NCBI RefSeq assembly: GCF_005298075.1
Contig: NZ_SZZH01000001.1
Location: 868,001 to 932,000, forward strand
Direction: 5' to 3'
DNA from: Nakamurella flava
GTDB lineage: Bacteria; Actinomycetota; Actinomycetes; Mycobacteriales; Nakamurellaceae
DNA length: 64,000 nt
Both the position numbers and the translations under genes were made by a program. Below, one piece after another: positions 23,688 through 41,645 of the stretch. A model generated the notes under the pieces. That model saw only the letters and a list, made by a program, of their open reading frames with translations. It had not been told where the DNA came from and did not search any database. Within the stretch, counting starts at the first letter, position 1; every line of letters begins with the position of its first letter.

Positions 23688-23803
23688 GGTCACGAGTTCC
23701 AGCGCACAGCCCCGGCTTGTTGGACGGCAACCCTCCCATCGCGGCGGGGTGCTCCGGGTGAGGACCTGGTCGGCATCGACGAGATGCCGGCAAGCGCGCG
23801 GCC
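23688..23803 (+). promoter_or_regulatory. SAM-IV riboswitch
   Basis: A cis-acting RNA that binds S-adenosylmethionine. The conserved core matches the mycobacterial SAM-IV sequence as I recall it: GGTCACGAG, CCCCGGCTTG, CGGCAACCCTCC, GGGGTGCTCCGGGTGA, GGACCTGG, then a variable stem (CGGCATC/GATGCCG) and the CAAGCGCG pseudoknot strand. The same blocks recur in order at 41936-41824 on the other strand. It is followed by a Cys leader peptide and a large sulfur operon, fitting repression when SAM is plentiful. Confidence 0.94.
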
Positions 23804-23838: not shown

Positions 23839-23949
23839 ATGACGACCACGAACGACCAGCCGGCGCAGCGCCGGGTCGTGTCCGTGCTGTCCGTGCAGCG
23901 ACGTCACGTCGATCTGCAGCGCGTCTCCAGCGCGCTCTGTTGTCGCTGA
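23839..23949 (+). CDS. Cysteine-sensing leader peptide (RRHVDLQRVSSALCCR type)
   Basis: A 36-residue peptide starting at ATG 23839 and ending QRRHVDLQRVSSALCCR then stop. The C-terminal block is the actinobacterial putative leader peptide family found before cysteine and sulfur genes. Published work on mycobacteria shows uORFs ending in consecutive Cys codons attenuate downstream genes when cysteine is available. Here it lies between the SAM-IV riboswitch and the ABC transporter, so the operon may sense both SAM and Cys-tRNA. GTG codons further in could be alternative starts. Confidence 0.85.
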   Translation: MTTTNDQPAQRRVVSVLSVQRRHVDLQRVSSALCCR

Positions 23950-24309: not shown

Positions 24310-25395
24310 ATGACCAGACGCTCGCTCCGGCGGCGCCTCGCCTCCACCACCGCGGCCACCGCCGCCGCACTGGGTCTGGTGATGACCCTGGCCGCCTGCG
24401 GTGGCGGCAGCATTGCCGCGACGGGATCGACCACGTCGGCTCCGTCGGCGACCGTCGCCGGCACGGGCACCGACCTGTCCGCGGTCACGCTGCGGGTCGG
24501 GGAGACCGGCTGGAAGCAGCAGGAGCTGCTGCTGCAGAGCGCCGGACTGGCCGACACCCCGTATCGCACCGAGTTCAGCCTGTTCCAGGGCGGCAACCTG
24601 CAGTTGGAGGCGCTGGGGGCCGACGCCATCGATCTGGCCAGCGCCAGCGAGATCCCGCCGATCTTCGCCGCCCAGTCCGGTGGTCCCGGCTCGCTGACCA
24701 TCTCGGCCGTGCGGCAGGGCAACACCCTGACCCAGGAGGTGGTGGTTCCCGAGGGGAGCACCATCGCCTCGGTCGAGCAGCTCAAGGGCCGCAAGGTCGC
24801 GTACGTCCAGAACACCACCGCGCACTACTTCCTGTACCAGTCGGTCGCCGCCGCCGGGCTGCAGTGGTCGGACATCGAGGCCGTCCCGCTGTCCACCAGC
24901 GACGGTCTGGCCGCGCTGCTGTCCGGGCAGGTCGATGCGCTCGCCTCCTACGGCAACGCGGTCATCACGGCCCACGCCAAGGGCGCCACCACGCTGGTCG
25001 ACGCGCGCGACATCCTGTCCGGCAACTTCCTGTACGTCACCCGGCCGGCCACCAACGCCGACCCGGCGACCAAGGCGGCGATCCTGGACTTCTACGACCG
25101 ACTCGAGAAGGGCTTCGCCTGGGCCCGGTCCCACCCTGACGACTGGGCCGCGGTGATCGCCCGGGAGACCAAGCAGCCCGTCGAGCAGGCTCGGCAGGTC
25201 TTCGTGGACGGGGAACAGCAACGCCCCAGCCACTTCGTCCCGACCTCGGCGCAGGCCATCGCCTCCCAGCGGAAGATCGTCGACACCTTCGTACAGGCCG
25301 GCATTCTCACCGCCACCGTCGACATCGGCCAGTACTGGACCACCGAGTACGACCAGGGCCTTCAGGCGATTCAGGCGGCCTCCGATGCCGGCTGA
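24310..25395 (+). CDS. ABC substrate-binding lipoprotein, sulfonate/taurine/nitrate type (SsuA-like)
   Basis: A 361-residue extracytoplasmic solute receptor. A basic N-terminus and hydrophobic stretch end in the lipobox LAAC (lipidated Cys30). The mature part has SsuA-like landmarks: LQLEALGADAIDLASASEIPP (in two adjoining parts), LKGRKVAYVQNTTAHYFLY and DALASYGNAV. It delivers an organosulfur ligand to the permease encoded next, overlapping its start by 11 bases. ATG 24310 has GAAAGG upstream. The ligand is unknown; aliphatic sulfonates are the family default, but the SAM/Cys control supports a sulfur compound. Confidence 0.88.
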   Translation: MTRRSLRRRLASTTAATAAALGLVMTLAACGGGSIAATGSTTSAPSATVAGTGTDLSAVTLRVGETGWKQQELLLQSAGLADTPYRTEFSLFQGGNLQLEALGADAIDLASASEIPPIFAAQSGGPGSLTISAVRQGNTLTQEVVVPEGSTIASVEQLKGRKVAYVQNTTAHYFLYQSVAAAGLQWSDIEAVPLSTSDGLAALLSGQVDALASYGNAVITAHAKGATTLVDARDILSGNFLYVTRPATNADPATKAAILDFYDRLEKGFAWARSHPDDWAAVIARETKQPVEQARQVFVDGEQQRPSHFVPTSAQAIASQRKIVDTFVQAGILTATVDIGQYWTTEYDQGLQAIQAASDAG

Positions 25396-26299
25396 CGCGA
25401 TTGTGCGGCCGGTCACCGGACAGGTCGGCGCCGGTGTCATCACCGCGCAACGGCCGGCCGAGCCGGCTTCCGGGCCGGCACGGACGGTGGCCACCACGGT
25501 GGTCGCCGGCCACACCCGTCGCCGGGGCGGCCGCCCCGCCGTGCCGCGCTGGGTGGTCAAGACGATCAGCCCCCTGGTGCTGGTGATCGGCTGGGCGGTG
25601 GCCAGTGCGTCCGGCCTGCTGCCGCGGACCACCCTGGCCGCACCGCAGGACGTGCTGGTCAAGGCCCGCGAGCTGTGGTCCTCCGGCGAGCTGCCCCGGG
25701 CCATCGCCGCGTCGGCCGAACGGGTCGGACTGGGACTGGCCATCGGCGTCACCGCCGCCGTCGTCATCGCCCTGCTGTCGGGCCTGTTCCGGCTGGGTGA
25801 GGACATTCTCGACGCCCCGATCCAGATGCTCCGCACCGTCCCGGTCATCGGGCTCATCCCGCTGCTGATCATCTGGTTCGGCATCGGCGACGAACCGAAA
25901 CTGATCCTCATCGCTCTCGGTGTGTTCTTCCCGCTCTACCTCAACCTGTTCGCTGGGATCCGCGGCACCGACCCCGCCCTCATCGAGGCGGGCCGCACCG
26001 TCGGGCTGCGCCGCTTCGGCCTGATCCGGCACGTCATCCTGCCGTCCGCGGTGCCGTCCGGCCTGGTCGGTCTGCGGTATTCGATCGGGGTGTCCTGGCT
26101 GATCCTCGTCTTCGCCGAGACCATCAACGCCACCACGGGTATCGGCTTCCTCATCAACAACGCCCGCGAGTTCTTCGAGACCGACACCATCGTGCTGTGC
26201 CTCGTGCTGTACGCGGTCCTCGGGCTGCTCGCGGACGTCTTCGTCCGCCTTCTGGAAAGGGTGTTGCTGGCATGGCGACCGACCTTCACCGGAGCCTGA
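25385..26299 (+). CDS. ABC transporter permease (SsuC-like)
   Basis: A 304-residue inner-membrane subunit with an unusually long polar N-terminus (about 60 residues) followed by about six membrane segments. The ATPase-contact loop is visible as EAGRTVGLRRFGLIRHVILP, close to the EAA consensus of binding-protein-dependent permeases. ATG 25385 lies inside the receptor gene's last codons, which indicates translational coupling. Together with 24310 and 26272 it forms a complete importer. Confidence 0.9.
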   Translation: MPADAIVRPVTGQVGAGVITAQRPAEPASGPARTVATTVVAGHTRRRGGRPAVPRWVVKTISPLVLVIGWAVASASGLLPRTTLAAPQDVLVKARELWSSGELPRAIAASAERVGLGLAIGVTAAVVIALLSGLFRLGEDILDAPIQMLRTVPVIGLIPLLIIWFGIGDEPKLILIALGVFFPLYLNLFAGIRGTDPALIEAGRTVGLRRFGLIRHVILPSAVPSGLVGLRYSIGVSWLILVFAETINATTGIGFLINNAREFFETDTIVLCLVLYAVLGLLADVFVRLLERVLLAWRPTFTGA

Positions 26300-26988
26300 G
26301 CGCCGCCCGGGTCACCGGCCTGACCAAGACGTTCGGTGACCGCCGGGTGATCGACGACCTGCACCTGGACATCGCGCCGGGGGAGTTCGTCGCCCTGCTG
26401 GGGGCCAGCGGCTGCGGCAAGAGCACCCTGCTGCGGGTGCTGGCCGGCCTGGACACCGAGATCAGCGGTCGAGTCGAGGTCGCGGACCGGCGGGCCGTCG
26501 CGTTCCAGGCGCCCCGGCTGCTGCCGTGGAAGAAGGTCTGGCGCAACGTCGTCCTCGGCCTGCCCGGCCGGCCGGACCGCGCCCGGGCTGAGGCGGCCCT
26601 GGCCGAGGTCGGTCTGAGCCACCGCAGCGACGTCTGGCCCAAGGTGCTGTCCGGGGGTGAGGCGCAGCGGGCGTCACTGGCCCGCGCGCTGGTCCGCGAA
26701 CCCGACCTGCTGCTGCTCGACGAACCGTTCTCGGCGCTCGACGCCCTGACCCGGCTCACCGCCCAGGCGCTGGTCGCCGACCTGTGGACCGTTCACCGCT
26801 GCGCCGTGCTGCTGGTCACGCACGACGTCGAGGAGTCGGTCCGGCTCGCCGACCGGGTCCTGGTGATGCGGGACGGCGTCATCGCCCATGAGGTCGTCGT
26901 CGACCTCCCCCGCCCGCGGGACGTGGCCGACCCCCGGGTCGTCGCGCTGCGGGCCGAACTGCTGGCCCACTTGGGGGTGCATTCCTGA
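26272..26988 (+). CDS. ABC transporter ATP-binding protein (SsuB-like)
   Basis: A 238-residue ATPase with Walker A GASGCGKST, the Q-loop area FQAPRLLPWKKVW (typical of SsuB/TauB), signature LSGGEAQR and Walker B LLLLDEPFSALD, then the switch histidine in LLVTHDVEES. It overlaps the 3' end of the permease gene; a GGAAAGG site lies upstream of ATG 26272. Its stop overlaps the next ATG (TGATG). Confidence 0.93.
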   Translation: MATDLHRSLSAARVTGLTKTFGDRRVIDDLHLDIAPGEFVALLGASGCGKSTLLRVLAGLDTEISGRVEVADRRAVAFQAPRLLPWKKVWRNVVLGLPGRPDRARAEAALAEVGLSHRSDVWPKVLSGGEAQRASLARALVREPDLLLLDEPFSALDALTRLTAQALVADLWTVHRCAVLLVTHDVEESVRLADRVLVMRDGVIAHEVVVDLPRPRDVADPRVVALRAELLAHLGVHS

Positions 26989-28436
26989 TGAGCGTGTCCA
27001 TCCTGGATCACCGGTCGTCGGCCCGGCCCGCCGACCGTGACGCCCACCGGGCGCACCTGTTGACCCGGCTGCGCGACGAGCTGTCCGACGGTGAGGTCTT
27101 CACCGGCGACGATGATCTCGATCGCGTCGCCACCGACCGGTCCGGTCACCGATTGCCCGGCCGGCCACTCGCCCTGGTCCGACCGTGGACGACCGCCGGC
27201 GTCGCCGCGACCCTGCGGCTCGCGTCGGCCACCGGCACCGTGGTGGTGCCCCGGGGCGCCGGCACCGGCCTCTCCGGAGGGGCCAGCGCACCCGACGGCT
27301 CCCTCGTGCTGTCCACCGAGCGGTTGAACCGGATCCTGCAGATCGACCCGGCCGACCAGGTCGCGGTCGTGCAGGCCGGGGTGGTGACCGCCGACCTGGA
27401 CGCCGCCGCGGCCGAGCACGGGCTGACCTACGCCCCCGACCCGGCCAGCTGGCGGCAATCGACCATCGGCGGCAACATCGCGACCAACGCCGGCGGTCTG
27501 CACTGCGTGAAGTACGGCGTGACCCGCGAGTCGGTGCTGGCCCTGACGGCGGTCCTGGCCGACGGCACCGTGCTGCCGGTCGGTCACCGCACCATCAAGG
27601 GCGTGGCCGGCTTCGATCTGACCGGGCTGTTCGTCGGCTCGGAGGGCACCCTCGGCGTGGTCGTCGAGGCCACCGTGCGGCTGCGTCCCCGGCCCGCCCG
27701 CACCCGCACGCTGGCCGCCTGGTTCCCGTCCGCCGCGGCGGCCGCCGCGGGTGTGCTCGTCGCCCTGGCCCAGGGCGTCACGCCGAGCGTGCTCGAACTG
27801 CTGGACGCCGGCACGCTGCGAGCCATCGACGAGGGCCAGGGCACCGACCTGGCCGAGTACGGATCGGCGCTGCTGCTGGTGCAGACCGACGGCCTCGGTG
27901 CCGATGCCGAGATCGCCGCGCTGGCCGGGGCTCTCGTCGACCTGGGCGCCGATGTCGACCTGCCCGAGGGGGCCGAGGCCGATCGGTACTTCGAGCTGCG
28001 CCGCAGCGGACGGGTGCTGGACGAGCGGTTGTGGTTCGTCGGCGAGGACGTCGCCGTGCCCCGATCGGCGATGGGCCCGTTGCTCGAGCGGATCGAACGG
28101 ATCGGCGCCGCGCACGGCGTGAGCACGTCGGTCGTCGCGCACGCCGGCGACGGGAACCTGCACCCGGCGTTCACGCTGCCCCGCGTCACGGGGGAGTCCG
28201 AGCCGCCACTCGCGCTGGAGCGGGCCGCGGACGACCTGGTCCGCGCGGCCCTGGCCCTGGGCGGCACCATCACCGGCGAACACGGGGTCGGCATCACCAA
28301 ACGCCGCTGGCTGGAACAGGAACTCGGGGCGCCGGTGGTGGACCTGCAGCGACGTCTCAAATCCGTCTTCGACCCGGCCGGTGTGCTGAACCCGCACACG
28401 TGGCTCGCAAAGGAGCCATCGTGGCCCGCATCCTGA
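26988..28436 (+). CDS. FAD-linked dehydrogenase/oxidase (GlcD-like)
   Basis: A 482-residue flavoprotein of the VAO/PCMH family, like glycolate oxidase GlcD and D-lactate or D-2-hydroxyglutarate dehydrogenases. The FAD loop is PRGAGTGLSGGA; the C-terminal FAD-oxidase domain has HAGDGNLHP and GEHGVGITKRRWL. In this operon it presumably oxidises a 2-hydroxy acid released from the organosulfur substrate. The ATG overlaps the ssuB-like stop. Substrate is inference. Confidence 0.88.
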   Translation: MSVSILDHRSSARPADRDAHRAHLLTRLRDELSDGEVFTGDDDLDRVATDRSGHRLPGRPLALVRPWTTAGVAATLRLASATGTVVVPRGAGTGLSGGASAPDGSLVLSTERLNRILQIDPADQVAVVQAGVVTADLDAAAAEHGLTYAPDPASWRQSTIGGNIATNAGGLHCVKYGVTRESVLALTAVLADGTVLPVGHRTIKGVAGFDLTGLFVGSEGTLGVVVEATVRLRPRPARTRTLAAWFPSAAAAAAGVLVALAQGVTPSVLELLDAGTLRAIDEGQGTDLAEYGSALLLVQTDGLGADAEIAALAGALVDLGADVDLPEGAEADRYFELRRSGRVLDERLWFVGEDVAVPRSAMGPLLERIERIGAAHGVSTSVVAHAGDGNLHPAFTLPRVTGESEPPLALERAADDLVRAALALGGTITGEHGVGITKRRWLEQELGAPVVDLQRRLKSVFDPAGVLNPHTWLAKEPSWPAS

Positions 28437-29695
28437 GCATCTCCGCCAGCCCGCAACCCGGCTCGAGCACGTTCGCCGTCCTGAGCACGGTCAACCGCCG
28501 GCTGACCGGCGCCGGGCACCGGGTCGACACGCTCCGGTTGCGTGATCTGCCGCCGTCGGCGCTGCTGGCCGCGGACGTCACCGACCCGGCCATCTCCGTC
28601 GCGCTGGAACAGGTCCGGGAGGCCGACGCGTTGGTGGTGGCCACGCCGATCTACCAGGCGTCGTACGCCGGCTTGCTCAAGGTGTTCCTCGATGTCGTCC
28701 CGCAGTTCGGGCTGCGGGGCAAGGCGGTGTTGCCGATCGCCACCGGCGGGTCCACGGCGCACGTGCTGTCGGTCGACTACGCGCTGCGGCCGGTGCTGTC
28801 GGTGCTCGGCGCGTCGGTGGCTCCGGGCTGGTTCGTGCCATCGCCCCATGTCCGCCACTGGCCGGACGGGGGAGTGCTGGTCGACGCGGCGTCCGCCGGC
28901 CCTCTGGCCCAGGTCGTCACCGAGTTCCTGGCCACGCTCACACCACCAGCCGGGGGGCCGGCCCTGGCGGCCGAGGTGCCCATCCGGGTGGATCGACCGG
29001 CCGGGCCGCCGGTGTCGCCGGTGGCCGGATCGGGTGACCTGACGGTCCTGACCCTGGATCCCGACGATCCCCGGCTCGCCCCGCTGCTGACCGACCTGCG
29101 CGTCGAGTACGGCTCCCGTTACGGCCGGGACACCCCGAACTCGTTGCTCACCGAGGTGCCGGTCAGCGACTTCCGTTCGCCCCACGGCGCTTTCCTGCTG
29201 TTGCTGGAGAACGGTGTCCCGGTCGCCGGTGGGGCGCTGCGCCGCCGCGACGCCGACACCGCCGAGGTCAAGCGCATGTGGACCGCCTCCGGGCACCGAC
29301 GGCGCGGACTGGGCCGGCGGGTCCTCGCCGAACTGGACCGTACCGCCGGATCGCTCGGCTACCGGCAGCTCTACCTGACGACGGGACCCCGCCAGCCGGA
29401 GGCCCGCGCGCTCTACCTGGCCGCCGGCTTCACCCCGTTGTTCGACGTCGCCGCCGACCCCGAGACCATCGGCCCGCTGCCGTTCGTCAAGCCGGTCCGC
29501 GACGTGCCGGCCCGGCCGGTGGCCGACCTGGCGCCGGTGACGGTGGCCGTCGGCCCGGGCGAGGCATGCGAGCGTGAAACGACTCTCGTCGGCTGCCGTC
29601 AGGGTGGCCCGGACCGCTCCCGCGACCTGGCGGTGGCCCAGGTGCGACGTCAGGTGCACAGCCGACTGATCGACCAGAGCGGACCGACGCCATGA
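28421..29695 (+). CDS. Fusion: NADPH-dependent FMN reductase (SsuE-like) + GNAT acetyltransferase
   Basis: A 424-residue two-domain protein. Residues 1-170 are a flavodoxin-like FMN reductase with SASPQPGSST and TPIYQASYAGLLKVFLD, resembling SsuE, which supplies reduced FMN to monooxygenases. Residues about 205-350 are a GNAT N-acetyltransferase with the acetyl-CoA loop SGHRRRGLGRRVL and QPEARALYLAAGF. A 60-residue tail follows. GTG 28421 has AAAGGAG five bases upstream and overlaps the preceding gene. I see no frameshift at the junction, so the fusion looks genuine. N-acetylation plus flavin supply in one chain suggests a step on an amino-acid-like thiol compound. Confidence 0.87.
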   Translation: MARILSISASPQPGSSTFAVLSTVNRRLTGAGHRVDTLRLRDLPPSALLAADVTDPAISVALEQVREADALVVATPIYQASYAGLLKVFLDVVPQFGLRGKAVLPIATGGSTAHVLSVDYALRPVLSVLGASVAPGWFVPSPHVRHWPDGGVLVDAASAGPLAQVVTEFLATLTPPAGGPALAAEVPIRVDRPAGPPVSPVAGSGDLTVLTLDPDDPRLAPLLTDLRVEYGSRYGRDTPNSLLTEVPVSDFRSPHGAFLLLLENGVPVAGGALRRRDADTAEVKRMWTASGHRRRGLGRRVLAELDRTAGSLGYRQLYLTTGPRQPEARALYLAAGFTPLFDVAADPETIGPLPFVKPVRDVPARPVADLAPVTVAVGPGEACERETTLVGCRQGGPDRSRDLAVAQVRRQVHSRLIDQSGPTP

Positions 29696-31776
29696 CGGTG
29701 CGCTCCGACGCGGCCCGGATCGACCGTCGAGGCGGCCGGCCCGCCGATGCCACCCCCCGCCACCGCCGCCTCGTCGTCGTCGGCGGCGGGCCGCGGGCGT
29801 TCGGAGTGCTCGAGCGGATCGCGGCCAACGCCCAGAGGTGGCCTGCGGCGGCCGAGCTGGAGATCGTGGTCGTCGACCCGCACCCGGCGGGAGCCGGCCG
29901 GATCTGGCGCGACGACCAGTCCGGTCTGCTGTGGATGAACTCGGTGGCCCGGGACGTCACGGTTTTCCCCGACACCTCGGTGACCATGGCCGGACCGGTG
30001 GTCGCCGGACCCGCACTGCACGAATGGATGGCCGGTGAGGGCCGACCCGGGCTCGCCGCCGCGGGACTGCTGGATGAGGCCGACGTGACCGGTCCGGACG
30101 GGTTCGCCTCCCGCCGCATCCAGTCCCGGTACCTGGACTGGGCGTGGCGGCGGGTGCTGGCCGCCCTGCCGCCCGCGATCCGGGTGACCCAGCACACCAC
30201 CACCGCGCTCGCGGTCACCGACACCGGATCCGCCCGTCAGCAGGTCGATCTGGCCGACGGGACCACGCTGACCGCCGATGCGGTGGTGCTGGCCCAGGGC
30301 TATCTGGATCGCAGCCTGTCGGACGCGGACCAGGCGTTCGCGCGAGCCGCCGAACGTCATGCTCTGACCTACATCCCGCCCGGTCCCACCGCCGACCTCG
30401 ACCTGTCGGCGCTGGGCGCCGGCGAATCCGTCGTCGTCCGGGGGATGGGCCTGGCCTTCGTCGACCTCGTCGTGCTGCTCACCCAGGGACGGGGCGGACG
30501 GTTCCACGAAGAGGACGGACGACTGCGCTACGAGGCGTCGGGGGCCGAGCCCGTGCTGTACGTCGGTTCGCGCCGCGGGGTTCCTTACCACGCCAAGCTC
30601 GGTTACCGGCGGTCGGTCACCGGGCCGGCGACCACCCGCTACCTGACTGCAGCGGCCGTCGCGGCGCTGCCACGCAACGACCGGGGACACCTCGACTTCC
30701 GCAAGGATGTGTGGCCGCTGGTGGTCCGCGAGCTGGCGGTCGCCCACTACGAGGAGTTGTTCTCGCGGCACCCGGACCGCACGACGGTGCCGTGGAGCGA
30801 GTTCCTCCACCGGTTCGAGAACGGCTTTGTCGTCGACACTCTCGAGCACTCGTCGTTCGGTCGCTACCTGACCGCAGCCGTCCCGGCGGCGGCCGACCAC
30901 TTCGATCTGCCCCGCATCGACCGCCCGTTCGCCGGCCATCGGTTCGCCGACGCGCACGCGGTGGACCGCGCGGTGGCCGATCACGTCGCCGAGGATCTCC
31001 GCCGCCGCGCCGACCCGTCCTTCTCGCCCGACGCCGCCGTGTTCGACGCGCTGCTGGCCGTTTTCGGTGCCCTGGCCGGGGCCCTGCGTTCCGGATCGAT
31101 CGGCCCGGCGGACCGGGTCCGGTGGGTGGAGAACCGCTTCCACGGGCTGTTCTCGTTCCTCGCCAGCGGGCCGCCCCCTCGTCGGCTGGTCGAGCTGCTG
31201 GCCCTGCAGGAGGCCGGCCTCGTCCACTTCCTCGGGCCGGACATCACCGTGCAGCTTCGCGGCGGCCGGTTCGTCGCGTCCTCACCGGCCGCTCCCGGGA
31301 CGGTCACCACCCGGGCCCTGGTGGACGCCCGGCTGACCCGGCCCGACGTCCTGGCGGCCACCGACCCGATCATCCGTGGGCTGCTGGCGACCGGCCAACT
31401 GGCGGCCGAGGACATCGTCGACGACGACGGAGTCGCGCTCGGCGGCGGACAGCTGCTGGCCGACGCGTCCGGTCGGGCGATCCGGGCCGACGGCTCGGTG
31501 CATCTCCGGCGCTTCCTGCTCGGCCCGTCGGTCTCCGGCTCGGCCGGGTCGGCCGGTTTCGCCCGGCCCGGCTTCAACGGTCCGGGTTTCCGGCAGAACG
31601 ACGCGGTGGCCCGCGACCTGCTGGAGCTGCTGAGCGCCGACGTCCACAGTGGCTCAGCCGCCGGACCCCACACCCGCGACCCGCGGCGCCCGACTCTGCC
31701 CGCCGACCACCCACCGGGGCACCGCGCCACCGTCGACCACCACCTGCCCTCCGATCGAAAGGTCGCCGTTCGATGA
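29692..31776 (+). CDS. FAD/NAD(P)-binding protein (FAD_NAD_binding_9 family)
   Basis: A 694-residue protein with an N-terminal Rossmann motif VVVGGGPRAFGVLERI (about 24-39) typical of the family that includes HI_0933-like and adenylate-forming-cluster oxidoreductases. A second landmark is VVLAQGYLDRSLSD. No membrane segments. ATG 29692 overlaps the previous stop (ATGA). It may be an N-hydroxylating or C-S-oxidising flavoenzyme, or a reductase for the operon's monooxygenases; sequence does not decide. Confidence 0.8.
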   Translation: MTVRSDAARIDRRGGRPADATPRHRRLVVVGGGPRAFGVLERIAANAQRWPAAAELEIVVVDPHPAGAGRIWRDDQSGLLWMNSVARDVTVFPDTSVTMAGPVVAGPALHEWMAGEGRPGLAAAGLLDEADVTGPDGFASRRIQSRYLDWAWRRVLAALPPAIRVTQHTTTALAVTDTGSARQQVDLADGTTLTADAVVLAQGYLDRSLSDADQAFARAAERHALTYIPPGPTADLDLSALGAGESVVVRGMGLAFVDLVVLLTQGRGGRFHEEDGRLRYEASGAEPVLYVGSRRGVPYHAKLGYRRSVTGPATTRYLTAAAVAALPRNDRGHLDFRKDVWPLVVRELAVAHYEELFSRHPDRTTVPWSEFLHRFENGFVVDTLEHSSFGRYLTAAVPAAADHFDLPRIDRPFAGHRFADAHAVDRAVADHVAEDLRRRADPSFSPDAAVFDALLAVFGALAGALRSGSIGPADRVRWVENRFHGLFSFLASGPPPRRLVELLALQEAGLVHFLGPDITVQLRGGRFVASSPAAPGTVTTRALVDARLTRPDVLAATDPIIRGLLATGQLAAEDIVDDDGVALGGGQLLADASGRAIRADGSVHLRRFLLGPSVSGSAGSAGFARPGFNGPGFRQNDAVARDLLELLSADVHSGSAAGPHTRDPRRPTLPADHPPGHRATVDHHLPSDRKVAVR

Positions 31777-32699
31777 CGCTCACGACCACCCACCCACGAG
31801 GCCATTCCGGACCGGTCGCACCGCCGGCCGAACCCGGGGCCGGATCCGAGGAGGCGATCGCGTCCTGGCGGGCCTGGCGGGCCACCCGGTCCGCCGAGTT
31901 GCGCCGCCCGCACGGTTGGCTCAGCCTGGCCGGCTTCGCCTGGTTGACCCCGGACGCGATCGACGTGCCCGGGCTGCCGGGACGCTGGTCCGCGGACGAC
32001 GAGACGGTCACCCTCGCCGCCCGCACCTCCGACGCGCTGTACCCGGTCGGCGAATCGCGGCGCACCGACACCGTCGATGTGCCGGCCGATCCCTTCGCCG
32101 TCCCGTCGAGCGGGTCGCTGGCCGGAACCGTGCGGTTTCCGGTGCCGGACGGCGCGTCGGTGCTGGCGGTCCGGCACGGCGACCGCCAGGTCGAGCTGCT
32201 GCGCCGGGCCGGCCGGCCGGCCCTGCGCATCCGGGACCCGCACGCCGCCACCCGAACCGGGTTCCGGGGCATCCCCACCTTCGACTGGACCGACACGTGG
32301 CTGCTCACGGCCCGTTTCGTCCCGACGCCGGAGCCCGTGGCCGAGGTGGTGCTGACCGCCCGTCCCGACCTGCTCACCACCGCGGTCACCCACGGCCGGG
32401 TCGATTTCTCGGTGGCGGGGACCCCGGTGTCGTTGGCCGCGACGGTCGGCGGCGACGGGGGACTGACCGTCGCCTTCCGCGACCTCACCAACGGCGTCCT
32501 GACGGCGCCGTGGCGCGTGCTGAGCACGGCGGCACCGGACGAGCGGCATCAGGTGCTGCTGGACTTCAACCGGGCGGTCAACCCGCCGTTCGCGTTCACG
32601 GCCCACGGCACCTGCCCGGCCCCCGTCGCCGCCAACCGAGTCCCGGTGGCCGTCACCGCCGGCGAACAGGCTCCGCTGGTCCCGGGGAGCGCGCGATGA
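31773..32699 (+). CDS. DUF1684 protein
   Basis: A 308-residue soluble protein. Family landmarks are RRPHGWLSLAGFAWL (about residues 44-58) near the start, the FRGIPTFDWTDTWLL segment and LLDFNRAVNPPFAFT near the end. The function of DUF1684 is unknown. Its placement between flavoenzymes, with four-base overlaps to both neighbours, argues for a role in the same pathway, for example as a hydrolase or binding protein. That is context only. Confidence 0.85.
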   Translation: MTLTTTHPRGHSGPVAPPAEPGAGSEEAIASWRAWRATRSAELRRPHGWLSLAGFAWLTPDAIDVPGLPGRWSADDETVTLAARTSDALYPVGESRRTDTVDVPADPFAVPSSGSLAGTVRFPVPDGASVLAVRHGDRQVELLRRAGRPALRIRDPHAATRTGFRGIPTFDWTDTWLLTARFVPTPEPVAEVVLTARPDLLTTAVTHGRVDFSVAGTPVSLAATVGGDGGLTVAFRDLTNGVLTAPWRVLSTAAPDERHQVLLDFNRAVNPPFAFTAHGTCPAPVAANRVPVAVTAGEQAPLVPGSAR

Positions 32700-33268
32700 C
32701 CGCCATCGTCGCCGTCCGCGACCCGCGGGTCGTCGTGCTGGTCGGCAACCCCAAAGCCGGGTCGAGGACCCGCCAGCTCGCCGAGCGCACCGCGGACGCC
32801 ATCGTCCCGGGGGCCGACGCGACGACCGTCGACATCGCCACGCTGGCCGGGGGGCTGCTCGTCCCGTGGCAGCTGTCGGCCGAAGCTGCGGCCGCCGTCG
32901 ACGCGGTACTCGCCGCCGATCTGGTCGTGCTGGGAACCCCGACCTACAAGGCGTCCTACCCCGGGGTCCTCAAGCTGTTCCTCGACGCGTTCGCCGCCGG
33001 CTCGCTGACGCGCACGATCGTCCAGCCGGTGATCACGGCCGGAGGTGAGGTGCATCGACACCTGGTCGACATCCACCTTCGCCCGGTGCTCACCGAGCTC
33101 GGCGCGCTGACACCGGTGCCCTCCCTGATCATCACCGAGTCCGAGATCGGCCGGTTCTCCGAGCTGCTGGACGAGCACGTCCTTCAGCACGGCCCCGCCC
33201 TGCGTGCCGTCCTCGATGCGGTGGCCGGTCGACCCACCACCACCCCCACTGCGGAGGCTCTGCGATGA
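32696..33268 (+). CDS. NADPH-dependent FMN reductase
   Basis: A 190-residue flavodoxin-like reductase with LVGNPKAGSRT near the start and TPTYKASYPGVLKLFLDAF, which matches the SsuE/MsuE type and the first domain of the fusion at 28421. It should supply FMNH2 to the two monooxygenases encoded immediately downstream. ATG overlaps the DUF1684 stop, and its own stop overlaps the next ATG. Confidence 0.9.
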   Translation: MTAIVAVRDPRVVVLVGNPKAGSRTRQLAERTADAIVPGADATTVDIATLAGGLLVPWQLSAEAAAAVDAVLAADLVVLGTPTYKASYPGVLKLFLDAFAAGSLTRTIVQPVITAGGEVHRHLVDIHLRPVLTELGALTPVPSLIITESEIGRFSELLDEHVLQHGPALRAVLDAVAGRPTTTPTAEALR

Positions 33269-34413
33269 CCACCACGCCCCTGTTGATCGGCGTCGCCCTG
33301 GACGGAGCCGGCTGGCACCCCGCCGCCTGGCGGGAGCCGACCGCCCATCCGGCCGCCCTCTTCGCCAGCCGCACGTGGGTCGAACTGGCCCGGACCGCGG
33401 ACACCGGCGGGCTCGACTTCCTCACCCTCGAGGACGTCTTCGCCCCGGCGGCCGACGGGAGTGCCCCGGTCCGGCTGGACGCCACGCTGCTGGCCGCCCG
33501 GCTCGCCCCGGTCACCACCGCGATCGGTCTGCTGCCCTCGGTCGCGGCCCAGCAGACCGAGCCGTTCCACGCGGCCAAGGCCATCGCCACCCTCGACTAC
33601 GCGGCGACCGGACGGGCCGGCGTCCTGGTGCGCGCGTCCACCTCGCCCGCCGAATACGCCCACCTCGGTCGTCGTACCGGACCGGCCCCGGCGGCCGAAC
33701 GCTACGGCGAGGTGGCCGACTACGTCGAGGTGCTGCGACGGCTGTGGGACAGCTGGGAGGACGACGCCGAGATCCGCGACGCCGCGACCGGCCGGTTCGT
33801 CGACATCGACAAGCTGCACTACATCGACTTCGCCGGGCCGCACTTCTCGGTCAAGGGGCCGTCCATCACGCCCCGTCCGCCGCAGGGGCAGCCGCCGGTC
33901 GCGGTGACGGTCGACGCGTCCGCCCTCACCGACCCGACGGCGCTGCGGGCCGCGGTGCGTGGGGCCGACCTGGTGCTGGCGCCGGCGGCCGACGTCGGGG
34001 AATTCGGGGTCGCTGCGGACCGCATCCGCGCGAGCGCTCCGACGCCGGACCAGGGTCCGGCGATCGTCGCCGAGATCGCTGTCGCGCTGGACCGTCCCGG
34101 GGATCCGGCCGATCGGCGTCTGGCCCGGCTGGACGGCCGGCAGTCCTGGTCGTCCCCGACCGCGGTCGTCGGCGGTTCGGCCGACGCGGTCGCCGACACC
34201 ATCGGGCGCTGGCAGGCGGCCGGGGCGGACGGTGTCCGGCTGCGCCCGGCGGTCCTGCCCGACGACCTGCACGCCATCACCGACGACCTGCTGCCCGCCC
34301 TGCGCGCCCGTGGGCTGACCCGCCCGGCCGAGAACGCGGCCGCCACCTTCCGGGACAGGCTGGGTCTGGCCCGTCCCGAGAACCGTTACGCCACCTCAGG
34401 AGTCAGCGCATGA
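33265..34413 (+). CDS. LLM-class flavin-dependent monooxygenase
   Basis: A 382-residue luciferase-fold protein. Segments such as LARTADTGGLDFLTLEDVF, VTTAIGLLPSV and HYIDFAGPHFSVKGP are typical of bacterial LLM oxidoreductases linked to N-acetyl-cysteine-conjugate or sulfonate breakdown. It is expected to use FMNH2 and O2 to oxidise or cleave C-S bonds. It overlaps neighbours by four bases on both sides. Confidence 0.88.
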   Translation: MTTTPLLIGVALDGAGWHPAAWREPTAHPAALFASRTWVELARTADTGGLDFLTLEDVFAPAADGSAPVRLDATLLAARLAPVTTAIGLLPSVAAQQTEPFHAAKAIATLDYAATGRAGVLVRASTSPAEYAHLGRRTGPAPAAERYGEVADYVEVLRRLWDSWEDDAEIRDAATGRFVDIDKLHYIDFAGPHFSVKGPSITPRPPQGQPPVAVTVDASALTDPTALRAAVRGADLVLAPAADVGEFGVAADRIRASAPTPDQGPAIVAEIAVALDRPGDPADRRLARLDGRQSWSSPTAVVGGSADAVADTIGRWQAAGADGVRLRPAVLPDDLHAITDDLLPALRARGLTRPAENAAATFRDRLGLARPENRYATSGVSA

Positions 34414-35786
34414 CCAGCCCCCGTCCCCGCAAGCAGGTCCACCTCGCCGCGCACTTCCCGGGGGTCAACAACACCACGGTGTGGAGCGACCCCCGGTCGG
34501 GCAGCCACATCGAGTTCGACTCCTTCGTGCGTTTCGCGCAGATCGCCGAACGGGCCAAGTTCGACTTCCTGTTCCTGGCCGAGGGGCTGCGGCTGCGCGA
34601 ACAGAACGGCCGGATCTACGACCTCGACGTCGTCGGCCGCCCGGACACGTTCACCGTGCTGGCCGCCCTGGCCGCGGTCACCGACCGGCTGGGTCTGACC
34701 GGCACCATCAACTCGACGTTCAACGAGCCGTTCGAGGTGGCCAGCCAGTTCGCCTCCCTCGACCATCTGTCGGACGGCCGGGCCGCCTGGAACGTCGTCA
34801 CTTCCTGGGACGCGTTCACCGGTGAGAACTTCCGCCGCGGCGGGTATCTCCCGGAGTCGGACCGGTACGAGAGGGCGCAGGCGTTCCTCGACGCGGCCAC
34901 CACGCTGTTCGACTCCTGGGACGGGGTCGACGTGGTCGCCGACGCCGAGTCCGGCCGGCTGTTCTCCGCCGACGAACCCGGCACCTACGCGATCCGCGAC
35001 GACTTCTTCGACATCGCCGGACGTTTCCCGGTGCCGACCAGCCCCCAGGGCCGGCCGGTGATCTTCCAGGCCGGCGATTCCAAGCGCGGCCGGGAGTTCG
35101 CGGCCGCGTCGGCCGACGCGATCTTCACCCGGCACGGGACGCTCGACGCCGGCCAGGCGTTCTACGCCGACGTCAAGGGGCGCCTGTCCCGCTACGGACG
35201 CACGCACGACGAACTGCTGGTCCTGCCGGCCGCGACGTTCGCGCTGGCCGACACCGACGAGCAGGCGGCGGAACTCGCGGCCGAGATCCGCCGCCAGCAG
35301 GTCAGCCCGCAGACCGCCCTGCGGTTCGCCGAGCAACTGTGGAACCGCAACCTCTCCGACTACGACCCGGACGGCCCGGTCCCGGAGTTCGACCCGGTCG
35401 AGGGCGAGCACACCATCGCGCGGGGCCGGGCCAGCGTCCGCCAGCACGGCGACCGGCTCACCGAAGCCCAGCGGTGGCGCCGGCTGGGCGCCGAGAAGGG
35501 CCTGTCCCTGCGGGAGGTGGTCATCGAGGTCACCGGCCGGCAGAACTTCATCGGCTCCCCGGAGACGATCGCCGCCACCATCGACCGGTACGTGCAGGCC
35601 GACGCCAGCGACGGCTTCATCCTCGTCCCGCACATCACCCCGGACGGGTTGGCCGAGTTCGCCGACCGGGTGGTGCCGCTCCTGCAGGAGCGGGGCGTGT
35701 TCCGGACCGAGTACACCGGGACCACCCTGCGGGACCACCTCGGCCTGCGGGTGCCGACCCCACGGTCGCTGGCCGGCGCCCGATGA
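34410..35786 (+). CDS. NtaA/DmoA-family FMN-dependent monooxygenase
   Basis: A 458-residue two-component monooxygenase. Landmarks are QVHLAAHFPGVNNTTVWSDP, FDFLFLAEGLRLRE and the SDGRAAWNVVTSWD block, all typical of NtaA, DmoA, SnaA and B. subtilis YtnJ/YxeK. YxeK-type enzymes split S-modified N-acetyl-cysteines, and DmoA splits dimethyl sulfide, so a C-S bond cleaving role is plausible. ATG 34410 overlaps the previous stop. Confidence 0.9.
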   Translation: MTSPRPRKQVHLAAHFPGVNNTTVWSDPRSGSHIEFDSFVRFAQIAERAKFDFLFLAEGLRLREQNGRIYDLDVVGRPDTFTVLAALAAVTDRLGLTGTINSTFNEPFEVASQFASLDHLSDGRAAWNVVTSWDAFTGENFRRGGYLPESDRYERAQAFLDAATTLFDSWDGVDVVADAESGRLFSADEPGTYAIRDDFFDIAGRFPVPTSPQGRPVIFQAGDSKRGREFAAASADAIFTRHGTLDAGQAFYADVKGRLSRYGRTHDELLVLPAATFALADTDEQAAELAAEIRRQQVSPQTALRFAEQLWNRNLSDYDPDGPVPEFDPVEGEHTIARGRASVRQHGDRLTEAQRWRRLGAEKGLSLREVVIEVTGRQNFIGSPETIAATIDRYVQADASDGFILVPHITPDGLAEFADRVVPLLQERGVFRTEYTGTTLRDHLGLRVPTPRSLAGAR

Positions 35787-36523
35787 CCGGCACGCTGCCC
35801 GTCCCGGATCTCGGCCTGCCCGCCGATCCGACTCTCGGCGACCCGGTGCTGGACCAGCCGGTCTGGGCCTCACTGCTCGGCGTGCACGGTCGGCTGGCCG
35901 AGCGGCACCGCCGGGCCGCCCGCTACCACCCCGACGTCGCCGGTTTCGTGGCCCTGTCGGACCCCGACGACCCGGCAGCCTGGGCCGATCTGGCCGCCCT
36001 GGTCGGGCCGGGGGTCACCGTGGCGCTGTCCGGCGTTACCGCGCCACCGCCACCCGGCTGGCGGATCGGCGAGGACCTGCCCGGCGTACAGATGGTCGAC
36101 GTCTCCGTGGACAAACGACCCGACCCGGAGGCGATACGGCTGACCCGGGAGGACGTCCCGGAAATCCTGGACCTCGTCGACCGGACCCGGCCGGGCCCGT
36201 TCCGCCCGGGGACCATCGAGCTCGGCACCTACCTGGGCATCCGGCGGGGTGGACGACTGGTCGCAATGGCCGGCGAGCGTCTGCACCCACCGGGATGGAC
36301 CGAGATCAGCGCCGTGTGCACCGATCCCGGATACCGGGGCCAGGGTCTGGCGACCCGCTTGGTGTCCGCGGTCGGCGCCGGTATCGCGGCCCGCGGCGAA
36401 CGGGCGCTGCTGCACGCCTGGGCCGGCAACGTCTCGGCCATCCGGCTGTACGAATCGCTGGGCTTCCGACTGCGCCGCACGACCCGGTTCGCCCAGTACA
36501 CGACCCCGGAGGATGCCTCATGA
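35783..36523 (+). CDS. GNAT N-acetyltransferase
   Basis: A 246-residue protein whose C-terminal half (about 110-240) is a GNAT domain with the acetyl-CoA pyrophosphate loop DPGYRGQGLATRLV and AGNVSAIRLYESLGF. The N-terminal half is poorly characterised. In B. subtilis sulfur operons, GNATs acetylate S-modified cysteines before flavin cleavage, so a similar protecting step is a fair guess here. It overlaps both neighbours by four bases. Confidence 0.87.
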   Translation: MTGTLPVPDLGLPADPTLGDPVLDQPVWASLLGVHGRLAERHRRAARYHPDVAGFVALSDPDDPAAWADLAALVGPGVTVALSGVTAPPPPGWRIGEDLPGVQMVDVSVDKRPDPEAIRLTREDVPEILDLVDRTRPGPFRPGTIELGTYLGIRRGGRLVAMAGERLHPPGWTEISAVCTDPGYRGQGLATRLVSAVGAGIAARGERALLHAWAGNVSAIRLYESLGFRLRRTTRFAQYTTPEDAS

Positions 36524-37749
36524 CGGCGGTGCTCGGGGCGGTCGAGCCGACGGGCCTGGCCCGGCCGACGGTGAGTCTCGAGACCGCCCGTCGGCTCACC
36601 GCTCTCACCGCCGGGTTCCCGCTGCAACCGGTGGGACCGGGCAGCATCCCGTTGAGTGGTGGGATTCCCGCCCCGGACGTCCTGCCGGTGGCCGAACTGG
36701 CCGAGAGTTTCGCGACCGTCCTGACCGACCCGGCCGCCGCCACCGTGTCCCTGCCCTACGCGCGGCCCGAGGGCGTGGCCGAGCTCAGGGCGTGGCTGGC
36801 CGACCGGGAGGGCGTCGCCGACCCGGACCGCATCCAGGTGACCGACGGGGCGCTGCACGCCATCTCGCTGATCATGCAGGCCGTGCTGGATCCCGGTGAC
36901 CTGGTGCTGGTCGAGAGCCCCACCTTCCCGCTGGCCCTGCGCCTGCTGCAGTATCACGGGGCCCGGTGGGAACCGGTGCCGGTCGACGCGCACGGACTGG
37001 ACGTCGACGAACTGGAACGGCGGCTGCGGGCCGGGGTGCGCCCCCGAATGCTCTACCTGATCCCGGACTTCCAGAACCCGACCGCGGTGACCCTCTCGGC
37101 CCAGCGCCGCACCCGGTTGGTCGAGCTGGCCGAGCGGTACGGTTTCGTCGTCCTGGCCGACAACCCCTACCAGGAGCTGACTTTCGGTGGTAATCCGCTG
37201 CCCGGGTTGGACGTCGGCTCCGATCGGGTCGTCCGGGCGAACACGTTCTCCAAGACGCTGGGCCCGGGGTTGCGGACCGGCTGGCTGGTGCTGCCCCGGT
37301 GGTTGCGGGAACCGGTCACGGTGGTCAGGGCCAACACCGACCAGTTCACCTCCCTGGTCACCCAGCGGGCCATCGCCGACCTGGTGACCCGGCCGGGCCG
37401 ATTCGAGCAGATCGTGCAGCGGGCGCGGGTCGCGTACGCCCGCCGGGCCGCGACCCTGCGCGCCGCTCTGCTGGCCGAGACCGACGGGGCCCTGGCGGTT
37501 CCCGACGTCGACGGCGGCATCTTCCTGTGGGCCCGGATCACCCGGCCCGGTCTGGACGCCGATCAGGTCCTGGAACGGGCGCTGCTGGAGGGGACGAACT
37601 TCCAGCCGGGTCGGCACTTCGACGCGGCCAGCAGCGACGGCTCCGGCCCGGCGTACCGCCGGCACCTGCGGCTGGGGTTCTCCGCAGTCGCCGAGGACGA
37701 CCTCGTCGAGGCGGCCCGACGGTTGGGCCGTGCGGTCCGTGCGCAGTAG
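36520..37749 (+). CDS. PLP-dependent aminotransferase (class I/II, MocR/LysN-like)
   Basis: A 409-residue fold-type I aminotransferase. PLP lysine lies in NTFSKTLGPGLRTGW and the PLP-anchoring Asp/Tyr pair in VLADNPYQELTF. IPLSGGIPAPDVLP near the start is typical of the 2-aminoadipate/valine-pyruvate group. It is the last gene of the 12-gene operon and could transaminate the amino acid left after sulfur release. The stop codon lies inside a palindrome shared with the convergent gene. Confidence 0.9.
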   Translation: MTAVLGAVEPTGLARPTVSLETARRLTALTAGFPLQPVGPGSIPLSGGIPAPDVLPVAELAESFATVLTDPAAATVSLPYARPEGVAELRAWLADREGVADPDRIQVTDGALHAISLIMQAVLDPGDLVLVESPTFPLALRLLQYHGARWEPVPVDAHGLDVDELERRLRAGVRPRMLYLIPDFQNPTAVTLSAQRRTRLVELAERYGFVVLADNPYQELTFGGNPLPGLDVGSDRVVRANTFSKTLGPGLRTGWLVLPRWLREPVTVVRANTDQFTSLVTQRAIADLVTRPGRFEQIVQRARVAYARRAATLRAALLAETDGALAVPDVDGGIFLWARITRPGLDADQVLERALLEGTNFQPGRHFDAASSDGSGPAYRRHLRLGFSAVAEDDLVEAARRLGRAVRAQ

Positions 37750-37761
37750 CCGCTAGCGGCT
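37748..37761. terminator. Palindrome across two convergent stop codons
   Basis: AGCCGCTAGCGGCT spans the aminotransferase stop (37747-37749) and the LysE stop on the other strand. It is a short possible bidirectional terminator; only three bases separate the genes. Confidence 0.45.
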
Positions 37762-38427
37762 GCTGAGAGCGAGCTTCACGCCGAATCCGGCGATGACGGT
37801 GCCCGTCACTCCATCCATGACCCGCCGCGTCCTCGGGCGCTGCAGGATCGATCGGACTCGGCGGGCGACGAGCACGAGGGCCGCTGACCACACCACGCCC
37901 AGGGCGACATGGACGCCGGCCAGCAGCACGCCGAAGGGCAACGGCGAGGCACCGGCGGGGATGAACTGGGGGAGCAGGGCGACGTAGAAGGCGCCCATCT
38001 TGGGGTTCAGCAGATTGGTGGCGGCACCGCGCCGCCAGCCAGCGCGAAAGGCGCCCCGTTCGTCGCCTTTGTCGACCTCCACGCCGTCAGTGCCAGCCGG
38101 GGACACCGGGCTCCCCTGCGGTGCGCCACCCGCATCGCGGCGCGCGGCCCACAGCATCCTCAGGCCCATCCAGACCAGGTACGCCGCGCCGGTCCAGCGC
38201 AGCACCTCGTAGGCCAGGGTGGAGGCGGTGACCACGGCGGTGATGCCCAGCGATGTAGCGACCCCCCAGATCAGGGTGCCGGTCTGAATGCCGGTGACGA
38301 CGCCCCAGGCGCGCCGCGGGTGTCCGGTTGCCGCCGTGCGCACGATCAGGGCGGTGTCCAACCCTGGGGTGACGGTCAGCAGGCCCACAACGAGGATGAA
38401 CGACCACACGGCACTCAGTGTTGTCAC
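37753..38427 (-). CDS. LysE/RhtB-family exporter
   Basis: A 224-residue inner-membrane protein with six hydrophobic segments and the family motif TVTPGLDTALIVRTA near the N-terminus and NLLNPKMGAFYVALLPQF in the middle. Such proteins export amino acids, including cysteine or O-acetylserine (EamB/RhtB). GTG 38427 is used; TTG 38436 in frame is an alternative. It lies 100 bases after the cystine receptor gene on the same strand, with a hairpin between. Confidence 0.85.
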   Translation of the reverse strand: MTTLSAVWSFILVVGLLTVTPGLDTALIVRTAATGHPRRAWGVVTGIQTGTLIWGVATSLGITAVVTASTLAYEVLRWTGAAYLVWMGLRMLWAARRDAGGAPQGSPVSPAGTDGVEVDKGDERGAFRAGWRRGAATNLLNPKMGAFYVALLPQFIPAGASPLPFGVLLAGVHVALGVVWSAALVLVARRVRSILQRPRTRRVMDGVTGTVIAGFGVKLALSSR

Positions 38428-38472
38428 CCGCGGCAAACTACCCGGCGCTGGTTCGTTCCGGAAGCAACCGCC

Positions 38473-38535: not shown

Positions 38536-39543
38536 TCAGCCGGTCTTGGGCAGACCCGGCGGGTTGATCTCGGACTTGTCGACGGCCTCGCTGCCGAGCT
38601 GCCAACGGTCGAGAACCTGCTGATAGGTCCCGTTCTCGATGGTGTGGTTGATCGCGGCGGCGTACGCCTGCGCCAGCCCGTTGCCCTTGAGGGACAGCAC
38701 GGCGATCTCGCCCTGCAGGGCGTCTCCGGCACCGGAGAAGGTGCCGATCACCGTGGTCTCGCCGGTGCTGGCCGCGTGGAACTGCGCGGTCGGGTTCGGC
38801 CCGAGATACCCGTCGATGCGGCCCGACGACAGGGCCAGGTAGTAGTCGGTCGAGTTCTGGAAGTACTTGATGTCGATCGGCGCGAGACCGTCCGCCACGT
38901 TCGCCTCGTTCCAGTCGACCAGCAGCTTCTCCTGGTTGGTGCCCGATCCGACGGCGATCACCTTGCCGGCGAGGTCCTTGCGACCGGACACCGTCCACGG
39001 ATCGTCCGCGCGGCTTTCCAGACCGAGGGTGTCCTGCCGGTAGGTGGCGAAGTCGTACTTCTCCTTGCGTTCCTCGGTGACGGTGACATTGGAGATGAAG
39101 GCGTCCGCCTCACCGGAGTCGATGCGGACGAAGTTCTGCGCCCAGTCGGCGGTCCCTTCCTCCACCTGCAGGCCCAGGACGTCGGAGAACAATTCGGCCA
39201 AGTCGACCTCGGAGCCGATCAGGGTGGTGTCGTCGTCGGCGTAGAAACGCAGGGGCGGAGCGGTTCCGGCCGATCCGGTGATGCGGATCGTGCCCCGGTC
39301 CCGGATCTCCTGGGGGACGAGAGCGGCGATGGCGTCGACCTTCTCGGTGCGGATGCGGTTCTGGTCCGGCGTCAGGTTGAACGTCGCCGCCGAGCCGGTC
39401 TGCGCGGCGGCCGGCGACGCGGTGCCGTCACTGGTGCTCGCGGCCGGGGAAGTCGACGAGCCGCCGCCGCAGGCGGCCAGCATCAGAGCCGCGGCCATGA
39501 CGGCCGAGGTCACAGCGGCGCCGCGACGGAGTCGGGTGAGCAT
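38536..39543 (-). CDS. ABC substrate-binding lipoprotein, polar amino acid (cystine) type
   Basis: A 335-residue receptor with lipobox LAAC (lipidated Cys25). The mature domain follows the SBP_bac_3 pattern: IGSEVDLAELFSDVLGL, ADAFISNVTVTEERKEKYDF and LALSSGRIDGYLGPNP. A Ser/Thr/Ala-rich linker follows the lipid anchor. Cystine is the likely ligand given the SAM-IV riboswitch and Cys leader at the operon start. ATG 39543 has an AAAGGAT site. Confidence 0.87.
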   Translation of the reverse strand: MLTRLRRGAAVTSAVMAAALMLAACGGGSSTSPAASTSDGTASPAAAQTGSAATFNLTPDQNRIRTEKVDAIAALVPQEIRDRGTIRITGSAGTAPPLRFYADDDTTLIGSEVDLAELFSDVLGLQVEEGTADWAQNFVRIDSGEADAFISNVTVTEERKEKYDFATYRQDTLGLESRADDPWTVSGRKDLAGKVIAVGSGTNQEKLLVDWNEANVADGLAPIDIKYFQNSTDYYLALSSGRIDGYLGPNPTAQFHAASTGETTVIGTFSGAGDALQGEIAVLSLKGNGLAQAYAAAINHTIENGTYQQVLDRWQLGSEAVDKSEINPPGLPKTG

Positions 39544-39594
39544 GGTGGATCCTTTCGTTGGGGTGGAGCGGCGGGTGACAGGGATTGCCGAGGA

Positions 39595-39665
39595 CCGGGG
39601 GCGGCGCAGGTGCGCGCCCCCGGGTGCGGGAGAGGAAGTCGAGAGGGGGCGCCGGGCTGGCGCCC
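39595..39665 (-). other. Two intercistronic hairpins between ATPase and receptor genes
   Basis: CCGGGGGCG pairs with CGCCCCCGG at 39595-39623, and GGGCGCC with GGCGCCC at 39647-39665. They lie in the 125-base gap between two genes of the cystine ABC operon. They may stabilise or partly end the transcript, setting receptor-to-membrane-subunit ratio. Confidence 0.5.
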
Positions 39666-39668
39666 GGA

Positions 39669-41443: not shown

Positions 41444-41531
41444 GACGGCTTTCGGGCCGGGCCCCGTAAGGGGTGCGACGGACAGGCATCGGGTCGGGTG
41501 GCGGACGCGATGACCGGGACACGGGTCGCTG

Positions 41532-41562: not shown

Positions 41563-41645
41563 GAGGACGCAAGATCAGCGCGCCGAGAAGACCGGCAGCG
41601 CAACAGAAGTGGTCGCCGAAGGGACCGGTTCAGCGCAGAGCTGGG

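Follow-up and report, generated by a model that had tools for sequence, protein, structure and literature searches.

The closest described counterparts of the locus considered here are two salvage routes of Bacillus subtilis and the SsuEADCB system. The ytm/ytn route leads from a GNAT acetyltransferase through CmoO and CmoJ to a deacetylase, with YtnJ (CmoJ) cleaving N-acetyl-S-alkylcysteine sulfoxides (PMC10863075), and the scm (yxe) route for S-(2-succino)cysteine comprises acetylation, oxidative C–S cleavage by a flavin monooxygenase, and deacetylation (PMC12757645). The present locus lies in a 64,000-nucleotide stretch of the Nakamurella flava genome (contig NZ_SZZH01000001.1, positions 868,001 to 932,000 of the forward strand; hereafter the window), in which twelve genes for an SsuA-type importer, flavoenzymes, GNAT acetyltransferases, and an aminotransferase stand behind a SAM-IV riboswitch. 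On balance, the operon appears to encode a CmoO/CmoJ-like salvage of S-substituted cysteines, in which a 694-residue class B flavin monooxygenase (hereafter the flavoprotein) would act as the first oxygenase.

Operon architecture and control region

The initial annotation described a coupled operon of twelve genes at 24310–37749. Its coordinates and gene order agree with the present analysis, and domain and family scans reproduced its family list from the SsuA-type importer to the aminotransferase. The genes, with flavin mononucleotide (FMN), flavin adenine dinucleotide (FAD), and pyridoxal 5'-phosphate (PLP) as the cofactors named, are as follows.

24310..25395, + strand: SsuA-like substrate-binding lipoprotein (NMT1; best solved relative SsuA 2x26, E 7e-24; SsuA subfamily model TIGR01728 139.8 bits, below the cut-off of 163.5)
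25385..26299, + strand: SsuC-like permease (PRK11365 SsuC 234 bits, below the cut-off of 347)
26272..26988, + strand: SsuB-like ATPase (PRK11247 242 bits, below the cut-off of 395)
26988..28436, + strand: GlcD, FAD-linked 2-hydroxyacid dehydrogenase of the glycolate/D-lactate type (domains FAD_binding_4 and FAD-oxidase_C; TIGR00387 346 bits; glycolate oxidase 9qgz, E 6e-96)
28421..29695, + strand: SsuE/MsuE-type FMN reductase fused to a GNAT domain (TIGR03567 169.9 bits, above the cut-off; Acetyltransf_1)
29692..31776, + strand: 694-residue class B flavin monooxygenase, the flavoprotein (NAD_binding_9; 8cp2; structure model, residue table, and tree below)
31773..32699, + strand: DUF1684 protein (PF07920 109.5 bits)
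32696..33268, + strand: second FMN reductase (PF03358 91 bits)
33265..34413, + strand: LLM1, NtaA-like subunit without residues of the FMN-phosphate-binding motif (7e36_A, NtfO1, E 2.6e-36; motif comparison)
34410..35786, + strand: LLM2, YtnJ/CmoJ-like FMN-dependent monooxygenase of the NtaA/DmoA family (TIGR03860 386 bits; YtnJ 1yw1, E 1.3e-76)
35783..36523, + strand: GNAT acetyltransferase (FR47/Acetyltransf_1), adjoining LLM2 in several same-genus loci
36520..37749, + strand: PLP aminotransferase (class I/II) of the 2-aminoadipate or alanine-glyoxylate type (PF00155; 2egy, 2zc0)

Overlaps of 1 to 28 bases (most of them ATGA) were found at all eleven junctions: 11 bases between the genes of the substrate-binding protein and the permease, 28 between permease and ATPase, 1 between ATPase and GlcD (TGATG), 16 between GlcD and the reductase, and 4 at the later ones. 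One translationally coupled operon is therefore the natural reading. The control proposed in the initial annotation, by S-adenosylmethionine (SAM) and cysteine, is likewise reflected in the leader region, and the same pair of elements occurs a second time beyond the span then annotated.

23688..23802, + strand: SAM-IV riboswitch (Rfam RF00634, 104.9 bits, gathering score 38)
23839..23949, + strand: leader open reading frame of 36 codons, MTTTNDQ...RRHVDLQRVSSALCCR (ending SALCCR), a candidate Cys-sensing leader peptide
41646..41780, - strand: second leader open reading frame, ...RRHIDLQRVSSALCPAG, which matches the first and precedes a cystine-type importer
41825..41936, - strand: second SAM-IV riboswitch (RF00634, 101.8 bits, gathering score 38)

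Both SAM-IV matches are full length (positions 1–116 of 116) and above the Rfam gathering score. The second riboswitch and leader (41936–41646) stand ahead of a convergent - strand operon at 41572–37753 that encodes the cystine-type importer and a LysE-type efflux protein, and the stop codons of the two operons are 3 bases apart. The presence of a SAM-IV element and a Cys-ending leader on both convergent operons makes organosulfur scavenging under SAM/Cys control very likely. The leader tail RRH(V/I)DL.R..SALC is conserved behind SAM-IV elements in relatives, and the Cys-ending peptide is proposed to sense cysteine supply. A classical amino-acid attenuator, which the conserved Cys-ending leader would suit, is doubtful for the leader RNA, in which no terminator-like site was found and folding was no better than that of shuffles.

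The host genome contains four SAM-IV elements, two of them at this locus. The other two (C1:2019094-2019211, L158; C3:295033-295148, L155) precede MetY-like (O-acetylhomoserine sulfhydrylase) and cysteine-desulfurase-like PLP genes, as read directly from the sequence rather than by profile scan. An arrangement of SAM-IV with cysteine desulfurase has been reported in Streptomyces lividans (PMC8079986). Within the host's genus, the flavoprotein occurs in 12 of 17 genomes, and SAM-IV lies near these genes in 9 of the 11 relatives' loci examined (8 of 10 scanned as fetched, and N. silvestris, which has two elements; L073, with L184 the same contig). L181 and L187 gave no SAM-IV match, the importer of L187 starting at the edge of its stretch, where an upstream element would be missed. 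Leaders of the RRH(V/I)DL.R..SALC type were found in 7 of the 11 genus loci and in none of 10 aspartate-type or distant control loci; since only 6 of 73 other named loci have one, this control belongs mainly to the host's branch. The recurrent pair of SAM-IV and Cys leader is a candidate two-signal RNA control of sulfur starvation.

The flavoprotein and the aspartate N-hydroxylases

The label "FAD/NAD protein" given initially to the 694-residue product undersells the key part of the operon, a class B monooxygenase akin to the aspartate N-hydroxylases but altered in its substrate pocket. The sole solved relative is the L-aspartate N-hydroxylase of Streptomyces sp. V2 (8cp2, E 1.5e-92), and the AlphaFold model of the flavoprotein (predicted local distance difference test score, pLDDT, 84.6) superposes on the 8cp2 chain with a target-normalised template modelling (TM) score of 0.91. 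The aspartate- and sulfate-binding residues identified by Rotilio et al. (PMC10404684) were compared in 120 sequences, sampled by similarity to the window flavoprotein and rich in Streptomyces, for which the counts are descriptive. Nine of them (eight genomic sequences and 8cp2) are of the aspartate type with R266, R276, R409, R412, N413, and R416, whereas the operon type (111 of 120) has K266 throughout and has lost the remaining cluster, mostly with P276, L409, Y/F412, and G413 and with V, P, or A at position 416. The window flavoprotein itself has K266, P276, L409, F412, G413, and A416. The flavin-lining Trp51 and Asn62 are kept in all 111 operon-type sequences and in the aspartate type, and the operon clade retains Arg13 and Arg577 almost throughout. 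In the tree, an aspartate clade (9 rows) and an operon clade (108 rows) are distinct, each at 100% support, and three distant rows fall outside both.

The gene neighbourhoods divide in the same way. CreD lies nearby in 6 of the 8 genomic aspartate-type loci, none of which has any scored sulfur gene, whereas no CreD was found near the operon-type flavoprotein in any of 111 loci, the majority of which have sulfur-gene neighbours; those scored include a cystine-type permease (62), LLM1 (61), LLM2 (55), DUF1684 (48), and a reductase-linked GNAT (33). In other loci the GNAT half of the window's reductase fusion is encoded by a gene of its own near the flavoprotein gene. Judged by sequence and structure model, the flavoprotein is a class B monooxygenase in a sister clade of the L-aspartate N-hydroxylases with a changed substrate pocket. 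It shares with the FzmM/CreE type (8cp2) the fold, the FAD and NADPH architecture, Arg13, Trp51, Asn62, and Arg577, and differs in the replaced aspartate-binding Arg/Asn cluster and in having sulfur-gene neighbours instead of CreD; on these two differences a true aspartate N-hydroxylase was rejected.

One scaffold serves both aspartate N-hydroxylation loci and sulfur loci. The operon clade, whose members found here all come from actinobacteria and mostly bear the annotation "FAD/NAD(P)-binding protein", is now tied to sulfur salvage, and the flavoprotein represents a concrete candidate for the enzyme that first oxidises cysteine S-conjugates in these bacteria. Among the titles and abstracts of open-access literature on nitrosuccinate or aspartate N-hydroxylase, none concerned sulfur scavenging, although subscription papers could differ, and no open-access paper combined SAM-IV riboswitch, monooxygenase, and sulfur. 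The link of this clade to sulfur thus seems to be new relative to the literature found. DUF1684 is also tied here to sulfur genes; open-access literature on DUF1684 with sulfur yielded only a thiol-based archaeal regulator, and the structure model of the window protein (pLDDT 75) found its only matches among haloarchaeal DUF1684 structures, all of them uncharacterised. A second DUF1684 protein is encoded elsewhere in the host genome (C1:255548-255979). Aspartate-type N-hydroxylase genes near a CreD-like lyase gene were also observed in several actinobacterial families (L061, L062, L064-L066), likely in nitrosuccinate pathways.

LLM1 and LLM2

YtnJ (CmoJ, 1yw1) is the closest solved protein to LLM2, so that the likeness to the B. 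subtilis ytm and yxe operons recognized in the initial annotation finds support in LLM2 together with the GNATs and the convergent cystine-type importer. Against the NtaA/DmoA model TIGR03860 (cut-off 279.7), LLM2 scores above the threshold and LLM1 below it (212 bits). LLM1 follows the general pattern of the family, yet residues 94–98% conserved in LLM2, QAG.S among them, are missing from it. LLM1 matches NtfO1 and LLM2 matches NtfO2 of the NtfO1-NtfO2 heterodimer (7e36; PMC8027225), and LLM1 is probably a flavin-less partner subunit of LLM2. Common to this pair and NtfO1-NtfO2 or StmO1-StmO2 is an adjacent LLM pair with one FMN-binding and one diverged member, while the latter serve in polyketide tailoring and the former stands in a sulfur salvage locus, where a heterodimer is suggested by the genes.

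Modular organization in relatives

One same-genus locus (L179) has the order SsuC, SsuB, GlcD, SAM-IV, cystine-type importer, amino-acid oxidase, reductase-GNAT, flavoprotein, SsuD-like protein, DUF1684, FMN reductase, LLM1, LLM2, and GNAT, that is, the window's order with the importer, the oxidase, and the SsuD-like gene inserted. In four further loci (L182, L183, L185, and L188), LLM1-LLM2 form a separate unit preceded by a SAM-IV element of its own, together with the GNAT in L182, L183, and L188. Kribbella has the importer, reductase-GNAT, LLM1, LLM2, flavoprotein, SsuD-like gene, and DUF1684, and outside Kribbella these modules reappear in Streptomyces, Geodermatophilus, and others. This varying order and grouping shows that the genes behave as separable modules, of which the twelve-gene set is one local assembly. 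Organosulfur scavenging as initially annotated draws good support from the sequence and from eleven same-genus loci, but a single twelve-gene pathway is too strong a reading, GlcD in L179 following SsuBC ahead of the SAM-IV element and the rest.

LLM1-LLM2 homologues were also noticed on two Streptomyces plasmids, with no flavoprotein among the annotated neighbours of either. On pSCL4 of S. clavuligerus (L164) their neighbours are ssuE and a feature annotated as a "putative leader peptide", and on the plasmid of Streptomyces sp. NBC_01001 (L165) they lie beside an SsuA-type importer, a sulfotransferase, and a sulfatase.

Proposed pathway and alternative readings

The proposed salvage of S-substituted cysteines draws on the gene order, both riboswitches, the family assignments, the recurring modules, the changed pocket of the flavoprotein, and the loss of FMN-site residues in LLM1; its substrates, step order, oxidation at sulfur rather than nitrogen, and leader mechanism are putative. 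Falling SAM would relieve the SAM-IV riboswitch, and scarce Cys-tRNA would act through the Cys-ending leader peptide. Organosulfur substrates, chiefly S-substituted cysteines, would then enter by SsuABC and the convergent cystine-type importer, and their amine would be acetylated by a GNAT. The flavoprotein would oxygenate the substrate with NADPH and O2, most likely at sulfur, after which LLM2, probably with the flavin-less LLM1, would cleave the C–S bond using FMNH2 from the two reductases, and an M20 deacetylase encoded elsewhere in the genome would free cysteine. GlcD and the aminotransferase may handle the carbon remnant. As the former is nearest to glycolate oxidase and the latter to 2-aminoadipate and alanine-glyoxylate types, they would suit a glycolate/glyoxylate remnant, speculatively from a substrate such as S-carboxymethylcysteine.

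The window shares with the B. subtilis ytm/ytn route the YtnJ/CmoJ-like LLM2, the GNAT (two domains here), the cystine-type ATP-binding cassette (ABC) importer, and the flavin reductase. It differs in the class B flavoprotein, the flavin-less-looking LLM1, DUF1684, GlcD, SsuABC, and the SAM-IV element with Cys leader, and in lacking within the operon the deacetylase that belongs to the B. subtilis route; the role of the sulfoxidase CmoO is proposed to be filled by the flavoprotein or LLM1. Acetylation, oxidative C–S cleavage, and deacetylation would be common to scm (yxe) and the window route, but the latter has an extra oxygenase and carbon-handling genes.

Several points weigh against this pathway. 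Where relatives of the flavoprotein have been characterised, the atom hydroxylated is nitrogen and not sulfur. N. silvestris encodes the flavoprotein and an SsuD-like enzyme with neither LLM1 nor LLM2 within its 22-kb locus, so that the flavoprotein need not feed LLM2, and the operon-type flavoprotein of Amycolatopsis (L080-L082, L086, L088-L089, L091-L092, L100, L124, L135) mostly has no LLM1/LLM2 or DUF1684 nearby, possibly reflecting a second use of the clade. No sulfenate reductase was found in the operon. In line with the initial annotation, it has no deacetylase either, and none lies beside it. This lack of a deacetylase weighs little against the pathway, because two M20 amidohydrolases above the family cut-off are encoded elsewhere in the host genome and one relative (L185, genome G396) has an M20 amidohydrolase gene, a candidate N-acetylcysteine deacetylase, with a rhodanese-like gene between LLM1-LLM2 copies inside its SAM-IV cluster (1876-4554). 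Separately, a weak M20 match of the host (C4:155021-157334, L192) adjoins the gene for the host protein most similar (39%) to the amino-acid oxidase from the relatives' clusters.

General sulfonate utilisation of the Ssu type, in which SsuABC would import sulfonates, the reductases would feed LLM1/LLM2 to release sulfite, and the flavoprotein and GNAT would be accessory, is an unlikely reading of the operon. The SsuABC-like importer genes at its head and the SsuE-type reductase have counterparts in SsuEADCB, relatives carry the SsuD-like gene beside the flavoprotein, and on the NBC_01001 plasmid an SsuA-type importer and a sulfatase accompany LLM1-LLM2. However, the operon has no SsuD and LLM2 is of the NtaA/YtnJ type, and an SsuD elsewhere in the host that could complete the route was rejected, the best matches to the relatives' SsuD-like protein being 28–32% identical over part of its length. 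Moreover, most relatives of the flavoprotein cluster accompany a cystine-type importer rather than SsuABC, and a GNAT has no known role in desulfonation of sulfonates. Still less expected is a secondary-metabolite pathway to a sulfur- and N–O-containing natural product, SAM-controlled because it consumes sulfur, which can be given only a very slight chance. Aspartate N-hydroxylases and NtfO1-NtfO2 do come from biosynthetic clusters, but neither the operon nor the relatives' modules contain assembly-line or ligase genes, importers are present, a SAM-IV element that shuts genes off at plentiful SAM fits uptake or salvage, and the genes behind the other two SAM-IV elements of the genome appear to belong to sulfur metabolism.

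The choice between sulfur and nitrogen is posed by the flavoprotein itself. For the characterised members of its fold family, N-hydroxylation of an amino acid is the known reaction (PMC10404684); Arg13 and Arg577 (both almost throughout) and Lys266 would suffice for one carboxylate, and the clade is linked to amino-acid importers. The flavoprotein might thus hydroxylate the α-amine of a sulfur amino acid, with C–S cleavage proceeding from the oxidised nitrogen and the GNAT acting on the hydroxylamine or a product. This order of events is considered improbable, in that many loci have a GNAT fused to the reductase or close to the flavoprotein, and N-acetylation would preclude hydroxylation of that nitrogen, and a CreD-like lyase is nearby in 0 of 111. 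The association of GNAT and flavoprotein is the reason for preferring S-oxygenation. That the flavoprotein forms a new functional class activating sulfur amino acids by N-oxygenation, with sulfur release dependent on nitrogen oxidation, is doubtful; if true, such C–S cleavage would be a mode not described in the literature found.

Neighbouring genes

The convergent operon comprises four genes.

37753..38436, - strand: LysE/RhtB-type efflux protein (TIGR00949 107.6 bits, below the cut-off)
38536..39672, - strand: cystine-type ABC substrate-binding protein (PRK11260 cystine substrate-binding protein 93 bits, below the cut-off)
39669..40490, - strand: cystine-type ABC ATPase (best NCBIfam match TcyN 334 bits, below the cut-off of 406)
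40487..41572, - strand: cystine-type ABC permease, exact start uncertain (best NCBIfam match PRK15100 cystine permease 141 bits)

On the other side, an amidohydrolase gene at about 22000-23396 (+) ends just 5' of the first riboswitch; by eye, its product resembles 8-oxoguanine or chlorohydrolase-type deaminases, and it is apparently unrelated to the operon.

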